Shown piece by piece: positions 2,883 to 5,766 of a stretch of DNA of 64,000 nt. Position 1 is the stretch's first letter. Every line of letters begins with the position of its first letter. The stretch is from the NCBI GenBank assembly GCA_937959115.1, contig CALGAW010000052.1, forward strand, positions 1 through 64,000, written 5' to 3'. The DNA comes from an uncultured Saprospiraceae bacterium (lineage in GTDB: Bacteria > Bacteroidota > Bacteroidia > Chitinophagales > Saprospiraceae). The translations under genes and the position numbers were made by a program. The notes beneath the pieces are model-generated. The model did no database searches. It had not been told where the DNA came from and was given only the letters and a program-made list of their open reading frames with translations.

Positions 2883-2982
2883 AAAAAGGCTGCAATGTAA
2901 AAACCACTGCAGCCTGTATTTTTTTTAGGTTAGCGTTGCTTTATTCTTTAATCAGTTTGCGGGTTGCTCTTTGCCCGGTGTT
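2883..2982. repeat. left copy of 100-bp target-site duplication
   Basis: These 100 bp are identical to 4637-4736 and directly abut the left end of the insertion sequence. The duplicated segment is the last 14 codons (with stop) and the terminator hairpin of the T9SS gene on the far side of the IS. Positions 2941-2982 are therefore an orphan copy of that gene's 3' end. One or two bases at each boundary are ambiguous because both the repeat and the inverted repeat carry TT/AA there. Confidence 0.93.
2887..2926 (+). terminator. rho-independent terminator (left duplicated copy)
   Basis: The stem is AGGCTGCA (2887-2894) / TGCAGCCT (2908-2915), followed by T8 at 2919-2926. On the plus strand it can end the TonB-dependent receptor transcript. 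The A-run on its other side makes it potentially bidirectional. Confidence 0.85.
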
Positions 2983-3061
2983 CCTGTTTTCCGCGATATT
3001 ATGTTAAATAGTTAAAATTTAGCTGTAATCTATTGATTTACAATGTCTATATTCTTTGTTT

Positions 3062-3074
3062 TGGGTGACCCATT
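3062..3074. repeat. internal 13-bp direct repeat of the IS
   Basis: TGGGTGACCCATT lies just upstream of the transposase start and recurs at 4611-4623, where it contains the TGA stop and abuts the right inverted repeat. It could be a transposase-binding site, but the left copy sits about 65 bp inside its inverted repeat while the right copy is adjacent. Confidence 0.6.
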
Positions 3075-3087
3075 TGTATCTTAGAGT

Positions 3088-4617
3088 GTGTTTTTCCGAG
3101 AAAAGAATAATAATTCTGGCAGTATTAGCATTCAAGTACTAAAAAAAGTAGGGAGGAAAAATGTATTGGTGAAAACGATTGGTAGCACCAAGGATCCTGA
3201 ACGACTTTCTGTTCTACGAAAATTAGCAAAAGAGTTCATAGATTCTCAAACCAATCAGTTACCTCTGGATTTGAATATTGCAGATAGTCGGTCGGATTGG
3301 TTTAATCTCGTACGATCCTCTATACAGTTTGTTCATTTAGTTGGGCCGGAACTTATATTAGGACGGTTGTTCAATGAAATAGGCTTTGATCAGATTTCGG
3401 ATCAGCTCTTTCGACATCTAACAATATCTAGGATCATATACCCTTCGAGCAAACTAAAAACCATCCGCTACTTGATGGAATATGAAATGAAGTCTTACAG
3501 CGTAGATCAAGTTTATCGCTATATGGACAAGTTAGAGGATCGGCTAAAACAGAAAGTAGAACAAATCAGTTTTGACCATACTTGCACGATTCTAAATGGT
3601 GAAATGAACGTTGTTTTCTATGACGTAACCACAATCTATTTTGAAGCTGAGAAGGAAGACGATCTTCGGATAACGGGTTTTTCAAAAGAAGGCAAACATA
3701 AACATCCTCAAATTCTACTGGGGTTGTTAGTAAGCATGGATGGTTACCCTTTAGCTTATCAAATATTCGAAGGAAATAAGTACGAAGGACATACCATGCT
3801 TACTGTTATTGAGCAGTTCAAATTGAGGTTTAAAATAGATCGGTTGGTTATTATCGCTGATTCCGGATTAATGAACAACAAGAACATAGACGAACTAATT
3901 GGAACTGGACAAGAGTTTATTATTGGTGCAAGGATTAAATCGGAAAGTAAATTAATCAAAGATCAAATAAAAGAGCTTGCTCTGAAAAACAAGAAAACCT
4001 TTGTTATCAAAAAATCGGATGAGGTAAGACTGGTGGTCGCCTATTCACAATCCAGAGCAAAAAAAGATGCTTTCAATAGAAAACGAGGGTTGCAGCGCCT
4101 AGAAGACAGTCTGGCAAAAGGCAAGCTAACTAAATCAAACATCAATAACAGAGGATATAATAAATATTTAAAACTAAAAGGTTCAATAAATATTAGCATA
4201 GACTATGAAAAGTATGAACAAGATGCCAGATGGGATGGATTGAAAGGATACATCACAAATACATCTCTCAATTCGAAAACACTGATCAATAGTTATAATG
4301 AACTGTGGCAAATTGAAAAAGCATTTAGAATATCAAAAACAGACTTAAAGATTAGACCGGTATATCACAGAATAGAAAGAAGGATTAAAGCACACATTTG
4401 TATCTCATTTGTAGCATACAAGCTTTACAAAGAACTAGAACGACAGTTGAAATTGTTGAATTCGAAACTCTCTACTCAAAGAACTATAGAACTAATGAAA
4501 ACTATTTATGGTATAAAAATCAAGCATCCGGTAACACAAAAATCTGATACTATTATTCATACAAATAACAAGGATCAGAAATATCTGCTCGAATTATTCA
4601 AAATTAAGCCTGGGTGA
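3088..4617 (+). CDS. IS1634 family transposase
   Basis: This 509-residue DDE transposase belongs to the IS4-like group, IS1634 type. Candidate catalytic residues are D179 (VVFYDVTTIYFEAE), D258 (LVIIADSGL) and E410 (YNELWQIEKAFRISK, the Y-x2-x-x3-E-x6-K signature with Leu where IS4 has Arg). The SRIIYPSSKLKT segment near residue 115 is also typical of the family. The GTG at 3088 is the likely start (MFFREKNNNSGS), because family members begin with a similar Ser-Gly-Ser stretch. The frame is full length and unbroken, so the element may be active. The stop codon lies in the repeat TGGGTGACCCATT. Confidence 0.92.
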   Translation: MFFREKNNNSGSISIQVLKKVGRKNVLVKTIGSTKDPERLSVLRKLAKEFIDSQTNQLPLDLNIADSRSDWFNLVRSSIQFVHLVGPELILGRLFNEIGFDQISDQLFRHLTISRIIYPSSKLKTIRYLMEYEMKSYSVDQVYRYMDKLEDRLKQKVEQISFDHTCTILNGEMNVVFYDVTTIYFEAEKEDDLRITGFSKEGKHKHPQILLGLLVSMDGYPLAYQIFEGNKYEGHTMLTVIEQFKLRFKIDRLVIIADSGLMNNKNIDELIGTGQEFIIGARIKSESKLIKDQIKELALKNKKTFVIKKSDEVRLVVAYSQSRAKKDAFNRKRGLQRLEDSLAKGKLTKSNINNRGYNKYLKLKGSINISIDYEKYEQDARWDGLKGYITNTSLNSKTLINSYNELWQIEKAFRISKTDLKIRPVYHRIERRIKAHICISFVAYKLYKELERQLKLLNSKLSTQRTIELMKTIYGIKIKHPVTQKSDTIIHTNNKDQKYLLELFKIKPG

Positions 4618-4636
4618 CCCATTCGCGGAAAACAGG

Positions 4637-4669
4637 AAAAAGGCTGCAATGTAAAAACCACTGCAGCCT
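4637..4669 (-). terminator. terminator of the T9SS cargo gene
   Basis: The hairpin AGGCTGCA (4641-4648) / TGCAGCCT (4662-4669) is followed on the minus strand by five U at 4641-4637. It lies 25 bp beyond the stop codon of the cargo gene and abuts the IS. Confidence 0.8.
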
Positions 4670-4736
4670 GTATTTTTTTTAGGTTAGCGTTGCTTTATTC
4701 TTTAATCAGTTTGCGGGTTGCTCTTTGCCCGGTGTT
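4637..4736. repeat. right copy of 100-bp target-site duplication
   Basis: This stretch is identical to 2883-2982. The copy still belongs to the T9SS cargo gene that reads leftward across it, so the insertion left that gene complete. After the IS, the minus-strand A-run of the hairpin is five bases instead of six. Confidence 0.93.
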
Positions 4737-5708
4737 TGTAATAAGTTCTACGAAATAGGCGCCACTGCTTAACTCTGATATGTCGATTGCTTTACCTGTA
4801 TAGCTAATTTCTCTCATCTTTTTTCCTCTGCTATCCATGACTATTAAGGTTTCGATATTTAGATTTTTCTCGTTGATTGTCAGATTAAACGACTGATCAG
4901 CCGGGTTGGGGAAAACTGTTATATCAAGGTTCTTCTTTGCAGTACTTTCATTAGAAGACAACAATTTCACAAAGTTAAATGACACATTTGCTGGAATTGT
5001 TCCATTGAGATAATCACTATAAGAATCTAGCACCTGACTCATTGTTGGGGTAGCCGCAGATCCAGTTAAAACGCTAGCAGGCGCAAGGACAGCATCGTTG
5101 TAAAAATCAAAGGTAGGATATAGTGCAATGTGTGTTCCTGTGCTACCATCGTAGGATAGGTTTGGCTGGGTTACAGAGTTTGGTCCAAAGTGTATTTCAA
5201 TATTGTTAGATCCTTCATACAACCACAATTGGAAATTTACAAAATCTGAAGATATAGCATCATCAAATAGTTCACCATAAAACCCAACATTGTTCCATTC
5301 TATTTTTAGTATTTGACTACCAGGATTCCCTGAAAGCAAATAGGATATATTGGATATTGAAGTGGAAGTTGGTACATCAAGAACAGTATCATATCCTCTG
5401 TCGATAATATCGGATCCGTATGGGATGAGCAAAAAATCTGTGTTTAATACTGCAGGATCCGCACTAAGTTCAGTTCCATATCCCCAATCTATAATATAAA
5501 TTGTATTAATAAGAGTATCAAAAAATTCAAAGTCAAATCCTATTGGAATGGTATAGCCAGGATCATCCCAAGTTATTCCATTATTGAGTGAAGTACTCCC
5601 CACCAGATCTGTGTAAACAATTGGTGATTGATTGAAAGAATAAGTTTGAGCACTAAGCCCTAATGAGAGCCCTAGTAACGTAACTAGAAGTAAATGTTTG
5701 ATTTTCAT
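4695..5708 (-). CDS. secreted protein with T9SS type A sorting domain
   Basis: This is a 337-residue exported protein. The ATG at 5708 is chosen because it starts a clear signal peptide (MKIKHLLLVTLLGLSLGLSAQ); the 13 upstream in-frame codons are ignored. The body is a beta-rich domain with NIEIHFGPNS and SFNFVKL, which I do not recognise. The last 80 residues or so form a type A T9SS C-terminal domain: DITVFPNPADQSFNL, then IVMDSRGKKM, then LSSGAYFVELITNTGQ and a basic tail ending KLIKE. Cargo of this type crosses the outer membrane by T9SS and is cleaved. A promoter lies at 5735-5766, and the 3' end was duplicated by the neighbouring IS. Confidence 0.88.
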   Translation of the reverse strand: MKIKHLLLVTLLGLSLGLSAQTYSFNQSPIVYTDLVGSTSLNNGITWDDPGYTIPIGFDFEFFDTLINTIYIIDWGYGTELSADPAVLNTDFLLIPYGSDIIDRGYDTVLDVPTSTSISNISYLLSGNPGSQILKIEWNNVGFYGELFDDAISSDFVNFQLWLYEGSNNIEIHFGPNSVTQPNLSYDGSTGTHIALYPTFDFYNDAVLAPASVLTGSAATPTMSQVLDSYSDYLNGTIPANVSFNFVKLLSSNESTAKKNLDITVFPNPADQSFNLTINEKNLNIETLIVMDSRGKKMREISYTGKAIDISELSSGAYFVELITNTGQRATRKLIKE

Positions 5709-5734
5709 GTTTTTCCTTTGTCTTATTAAAAAGA

Positions 5735-5766
5735 CAAATTTAAGCATCCTAGACTACAAGAACAAA
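5735..5766 (-). promoter_or_regulatory. Bacteroidota-type promoter for the T9SS cargo gene
   Basis: On the minus strand, TTTG (5766-5763), 20 nt and TAAATTTG (5742-5735) match the Bacteroidota -33 TTTG / -7 TAnnTTTG pattern with good spacing. The start site would be near 5728, leaving a leader of about 20 nt to the ATG at 5708, which supports that start. Confidence 0.65.

Follow-up and report, generated by a model that had tools for sequence, protein, structure and literature searches.

Long and variable target-site duplications around an IS1634-family insertion sequence of a Saprospiraceae bacterium and its relatives

How does an insertion sequence (IS) come to lie between two identical copies of a 100-bp stretch, when the length of the duplication left by a DDE transposase is usually dictated by the distance between its two active sites at the target? 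We take up this question at a locus in a 64,000-nucleotide stretch of DNA from an uncultured Saprospiraceae bacterium (hereafter the window), whose element, repeats and neighbouring features are set out in Table 1. The two 100-bp copies agree at 100 of 100 positions and lie flush with the IS tips, and the 100-mer occurs exactly twice on the forward strand of the 64-kb window and nowhere on the other strand; the 14-bp inverted repeats, each present once in the window, form a perfect pair. Sequence comparison bears out the preliminary description on this point, which had reported identical 100 bp on both sides and perfect 14-bp inverted repeats at the inner edges. For a perfect 100-bp repeat abutting both tips chance is excluded, and the repeat is almost certainly a target-site duplication made by this IS, its 100 bp being well above what most insertion sequences duplicate.

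Where the element ends and its target begins can be settled from its relatives. The inverted repeat is readable as 15-16 bp only because the duplication starts with AA and ends with TT. With the tip placed at CC, 28 of the 29 exact repeats around related elements are exact, the remaining one only with the tip moved one base outward; this rules out T as a part of the IS tip and assigns the flanking T and A bases to the target, so that the duplication in the window is best read as 100 bp, and not 98 or 96. A second copy of the IS was not found in the 6.38-Mb, 90-contig genome, in which the window element is the sole match. The suggestion that the insertion was a recent event stands in so far as the 100-bp identity bounds its age; it is only a bound, as some relatives' repeats are already 0.4-3% diverged.

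Table 1. Positions in the window of the insertion sequence, its repeats and the features beside it
Feature	Position	Strand	Basis
Complete IS1634-family IS, 1,654 bp	2983..4636	+	tips, flush repeat, sole genome match
Left terminal inverted repeat CCTGTTTTCCGCGA, 14 bp	2983..2996	+	
Right terminal inverted repeat, complement of CCTGTTTTCCGCGA, 14 bp	4623..4636	-	
Left copy of the 100-bp target-site duplication	2883..2982	.	
Right copy of the 100-bp target-site duplication, runs on into the right flank	4637..4736	.	
Transposase, 509 aa, GTG start, single open frame	3088..4617	+	NF033559 366 bits, PF01609
350-aa protein with type IX secretion sorting tail	4695..5747	-	
Terminator-like hairpin, left copy	2887..2915	-	
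Terminator-like hairpin, right copy	4641..4669	-	

The IS1634-type identity proposed for the element stood up well: the transposase scores 366.1 bits against the curated family model NF033559, whose cut-off is 100, and it also matches Pfam DDE_Tnp_1 (PF01609). IS4-family models remain below their cut-offs (NF033592, 36.3 bits against 115). Placed by what we take to be the spacing of the YREK motif, the protein holds this motif incompletely, with YNELWQIEKAFRISK supplying Y, E and K in register and L replacing R. PMC2266710 describes the motif of the IS1634 family as incomplete, the arginine being usually absent, and gives a size of 1,500-2,000 bp and ends C-----YT (Table 1 of that paper), which the size of the window element and its ends CCTGTTTT fit. 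The same paper gives target duplications of 5-6 bp for most members, from which the 100 bp in the window depart, with IS1549 and IS1634 as exceptions that together cover 8-514 bp; since both of these long-repeat elements are retained there as members, duplication length is not a condition of membership. The IS4 family (IS50, IS10 and IS231 groups), characterised by a full YREK and duplications of 7-13 bp, is set apart from the window element by the latter's score below the NF033592 cut-off, its missing YREK arginine and its 100-bp repeat.

Residues D179, D258 and E410 (codons at 3622, 3859 and 4315) are invariant in an alignment of 20 homologues and likely represent the DDE triad, as predicted from sequence. 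An AlphaFold2 model of the transposase (mean pLDDT 80.4) has Tn5 transposase as its nearest solved fold (Z 16.7 over 311 residues, rmsd 5.3), and the region of the model that holds the three invariant residues aligns with it. This likeness to Tn5 / IS50, an IS4-family element, does not extend to the YREK arginine or to the duplications, which are 8-9 bp in what PMC2266710 says of the IS50 subgroup. The window element is a DDE insertion sequence, probably cut-and-paste, belonging to a long-duplication branch of the IS1634 family, which is delineated below.

Such an element is of an already known kind, as IS1634 and IS1549 make long duplications as well. The IS1634 element itself, from Mycoplasma mycoides subsp. 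mycoides SC, has a same-family transposase and long, variable repeats like those considered here (PMC2266710), whereas its host belongs to another phylum and its length is 1,872 bp (PMC1798306) against 1,654 bp. IS1549 of Mycobacterium smegmatis is likewise reported to generate long direct repeats when it inserts, and is actinobacterial; both elements are compared with ours by description. The preliminary description was correct that IS1634 has long, variable repeats and went too far in calling it the known exception, as IS1549 has them also (PMC2266710). According to that same paper, no mechanistic model had been proposed for these repeats as of 2008.

On its left, the IS neighbours the gene of a TonB-dependent receptor (547-2802), and on its right the gene of the sorting-tail protein, beyond which lies a pyruvate kinase gene. 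The type IX sorting tail accords with the Bacteroidota origin of the DNA. The duplicated 100 bp take in the end of this gene (14 codons, counting the stop) together with the terminator-like hairpin behind it, and 2941-2982 is a stranded copy of those codons. The left end of the IS was joined at the point 14 codons before the end of this gene, which is intact because the stretch between the two joining sites was copied. The right end lies directly behind the T tract of the hairpin (GCCTTTTT, then CCTG). A second, weaker hairpin is present at 4714-4736 (CGGGTTGC...GCCCG, then GTGTT), with the joining site of the left end a few bases past it. As a general target, terminators are ruled out: taken together, 111 ends are not enriched for hairpins (mean z -0.21, p 0.25), although a few sit behind strong ones, the strongest being that of the window's right end (z -9.5). 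The empty site of the window insertion was not found, as neither of the two congeneric genomes searched has similar DNA there; at the protein level, the neighbouring secreted protein gave matches in its C-terminal part only.

As the genome has a single copy, relatives were measured instead of sister copies. Transposase matches came from 6 of 60 related genomes (E <= 0.001), from 31 of the 395 genomes searched in the phylum (E <= 1e-50), and from a collection of named genomes, of whose confirmed loci, at least 515 in number, the best 80 were taken. We examined 100 loci including that of the window and kept 57 whose inverted repeats scored adequately and whose flanks reached 500 bp or more on both sides; the other 43 had no inverted repeat, a weak one, or a flank below 500 bp. 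A repeat was counted if both of its copies ended within 15 bp of the tips. On this count a direct repeat of 16-629 bp sits at the tips in 37 of the 57 copies (56 besides that of the window), and 20 have none, with the proviso that several copies share a genome and so are not all independent. The repeats lie exactly flush with the tips in all but two cases, L065 (7 bp) and L113 (1 bp), and some pairs have diverged, with identities of 97.3-99.6%. The claim that the window holds a long target-site duplication like those of IS1634 gains support from this comparison, as its repeat fits one; the 20 copies without a long repeat at the tips are the counterpoint.

The 36 repeats of the Bacteroidota-centred set range from 16 to 629 bp (median 92). 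With loci added later, 51 repeats range from 16 to 682 bp (median 94): 38 are no longer than 150 bp, 39 lie between 39 and 250 bp, and 13 at 16-49 bp. L066, read as 155 bp, is outside the set of 36 and within that of 51, to which L027 and L028 were also added; the tips of L066, L027, L028, L132 and L135 were checked individually, the repeat of L142, one of the 51, begins 37 bp past the right tip, and that of L097 contains masked N. Repeat length differs between copies, including those of a single element within the same genome: in a single-contig genome of 4.1 Mb (G160), one element is present in three nearly identical copies, the first with a repeat of 131 bp, the second with 325 bp and the third with none. 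Copies in Litoribacter populi have repeats of 39, 97 and 250 bp, and others there have none or 7 bp, which is weaker evidence because of scaffold gaps in or beside these copies, one of which coincides with the end of the 250-bp repeat. Runs of 10 N in this species (2875-2884 in L060 and L061, 4219-4228 in L094 and L095, and 3418-3427 and 3888-3897 in L233) are flanked by repeated ends of about 137 bp, and probably arose in scaffolding, giving a false look of tandemly duplicated IS ends. One contig of a Bacteroidales MAG carries two copies of one element kind (L074 and L075), with a 75-bp and a 5-bp repeat respectively, at sites that are themselves related (65 bp at 85%).

Could the repeat be a tandem duplication that was there beforehand, or an artefact of assembly? 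The Litoribacter populi scaffolds, with their 10 N and repeated 137-bp ends inside or beside IS copies, make an artefact conceivable. However, the window element and its repeats contain no N, and long repeats are found also in single-contig genomes and in complete plasmid records, namely those of Persicobacter (33 and 406 bp), Aliarcobacter (682 bp), Rhodococcus (102, 27 and 68 bp) and Mycobacterium riyadhense (about 610 bp). As for a duplication preceding the insertion, sites without the IS hold the stretch in single copy in both cases tested. Around a Rhodococcus element (L133, 102 bp), the left flank, one repeat copy and the right flank align without gaps, over 1,354 bp at 98.9%, to an IS-less Rhodococcus plasmid site, and the joined flank also matches a second plasmid (893 bp, 89.6%); the stretch around an Algoriphagus element (L109, 572 bp) is single-copy in three relatives of the genus at 63-86% identity, part of it unaligned in one. 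Because these IS-less sites hold the stretch once, the repeat was made by the insertion at both loci, which refutes a pre-existing duplication for those relatives; for the window we regard either origin, prior duplication or artefact, as extremely improbable. On the Aliarcobacter cryaerophilus plasmid, the 682-bp repeat surrounds an IS with a broken transposase frame (L132); two close Arcobacter plasmids hold most of that stretch once, the match stopping short of the insertion point and the right flank being different.

What, then, do the joined sites have in common? In the Bacteroidota-centred repeat-bearing copies, T stands just before the tip at 34 of 36 left ends and 30 of 36 right ends. 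The background frequency of a pyrimidine followed by T is 15.8%; this pair lies just outside the tip at 61 of 72 ends in copies with a repeat, and at 31 of 40 in copies without one. Read along the target, repeats tend to start with A and to end with T. Each IS end picks the same kind of site, one per strand, a rule from which two Rhodococcus elements, L133 and L134, depart. A post hoc comparison gave a negative correlation between the T-richness of one end and that of the other (rho -0.45, p 0.006), so the two may depend on each other to some extent; one strong site may be chosen first. These ends bear on one-ended transposition finished by homologous recombination or break-induced copying, a route that would also be expected to yield variable lengths. 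As exact repeats abut CC tips at both ends and follow the same target rule at both, the transposase appears to have acted on each of them, and we consider the one-ended route very unlikely.

The copies without a repeat deserve attention in their own right. Of these 20, two have a displaced repeat (L035 and L118), and L075 and L061 have a match of 5 or 7 bp. In Belliella filtrata (L118) a 583-bp direct repeat (96.7%) has its right copy flush with the IS and its left copy stopping 1,165 bp short of the left IS end, a picture that a later insertion between repeat and IS would give. Recombination between copies was looked for in Litoribacter and STF2_160, with no exchanged flanks among the copies compared and a single cross-match of 65 bp at 85%. 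Perhaps the element inserts at a replication fork, its ends joining two sister duplexes or a single-stranded gap, such that one daughter receives a duplication of a stretch and the other a deletion of it: repeat-less copies exist and share the end rule (31 of 40 ends), as deletion products would. Yet the one search made for such a deletion, at the site of a repeat-less copy (L088), gave no homologue of that site in the other 11 genomes of its genus; we judge insertion at a fork to be unlikely.

Short repeats also occur in this curated transposase family. ISGka5 has a published duplication of 6 bp, and a letter-by-letter check found repeats of 5-6 bp in 13 copies, from two plasmids (Cupriavidus and Alicyclobacillus) and from genomes of the phylum of a Geobacteraceae genome (G457). 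Within that phylum, a 109-bp direct repeat (98%) brackets another IS1634-family gene (L195), and was not counted, as it does not abut recognisable inverted repeats. We placed 79 transposases (47 with long repeats, 14 with short ones, 18 without a call) in a tree made by a quick search with an arbitrary root, leaving out four long-repeat loci (L052, L132, L145 and L202) whose transposases are broken or partial. One branch of 51 rows (SH-aLRT 99) contains every one of the 47 long-repeat rows, along with three no-call rows and one 5-bp row (L205). The 28 rows outside, 13 short and 15 without a call, include none with a long repeat at the tips, and the 13 measured short-repeat copies lie there. 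The window's row belongs to a set of 34 long rows (SH-aLRT 99) inside the 51-row branch, and the long branch also holds the Mycobacterium riyadhense plasmid element (repeat of about 610 bp). Given that most of the long rows had been found through their similarity to the window protein, and that the root is arbitrary, the tree speaks for clustering only, consistent with one origin. No protein insert of more than 8 residues that would separate short- from long-repeat transposases met the thresholds, and no short-branch relatives were found in viral contigs. Within the literature searched, the clade-wide repeat pattern and the end rule look new: titles and abstracts gave no account of long repeats of the IS1634 family in Bacteroidota, nor of a split of the family by repeat length, and papers on IS1634 with Bacteroidetes, in the portions available, name IS1634-family elements only in tables, without repeat lengths.

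That many relatives share long, variable duplications suggests that the two ends are stitched in at separate places, and not by one fixed cut. The best explanation, which we hold to be reasonably probable, is a DDE insertion sequence of the long branch that makes separately placed strand transfers and copies the DNA between them; for the specific combination of separately placed ends with displacement synthesis, we lean towards it by a little. The transposase would lack a fixed spacing of its two active sites on the target, and each 3' end of the IS would be joined at its own pyrimidine-T site, one per strand and mostly separated by about 40-250 bp. Primed by the two 3' OH ends of the target, strand-displacement synthesis would then run through the DNA in between until it reached the ends of the IS, with one copy of the intervening stretch left on each side. 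In the reverse arrangement of the sites, the 3' ends would point away and repair would be expected to fail or to result in a deletion; some of the repeat-less copies could come from such sites. In favour of this mechanism are the repeats, the variability of their lengths, the end rule, the single-copy sites of two relatives, the lack of helical phasing and the gathering of the long rows on one branch, all of them observed. Against it are the 20 of 57 copies without a long repeat at the tips, the 5-bp row (L205) included in the long branch, the two Rhodococcus elements that depart from the end rule, the correlation between the two ends, and the predominance of lengths below 250 bp, for which a loose tether of 1.6 kb would not by itself account.

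Could the spacing instead follow from the shape of the target? In this case a rigid synapse of both IS ends would capture a looped target, the distance between the joins would follow the size of the loop, and the same synthesis would duplicate what lies between. This would be in keeping with the nearest solved fold, that of Tn5 transposase, which works as a synapsed dimer, and with the precise CC tips that 28 of 29 exact repeats abut. However, loops of less than about 200 bp should favour helically phased spacings, and tests at periods of 10, 10.5 and 11 bp found none among the 51 repeat lengths (p 0.28-0.56); moreover, 13 of the 51 lie at 16-49 bp. The absence of helical phasing disfavours a looped target, which we think improbable, and it is with separately placed ends that we continue.

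Regardless of how the repeat arises, what does it do to the genes at the site? We rebuilt the sites as empty at 25 loci with an exact repeat and 300 bp beyond it, and called open frames with a crude frame caller. A long open frame was split at 6 sites, a frame was touched at one junction only at 12, and none was touched at 7; a frame touched at only one of the two junctions survives. Random placement of the same intervals gave means of 17.4, 3.8 and 3.8 respectively, and none of 2,000 random trials had six or fewer broken frames. Selection on survivors can account for the fewer broken frames, as can a target preference for gene ends, or both.

To bring these observations together, we tentatively propose, at somewhat less than even confidence, that one IS1634-family lineage lost, probably once, the fixed spacing of its two strand transfers, with each end placed separately at pyrimidine-T, tens to hundreds of base pairs duplicated, and neighbouring genes often left whole. 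If true, the sister lineages with 5-6 bp would serve as a natural control for the part of the protein that sets duplication length, and with a larger set of long-repeat elements beside them the question of mechanism becomes testable. For the elements themselves, a long duplication can spare the neighbouring genes, and this may help them persist.
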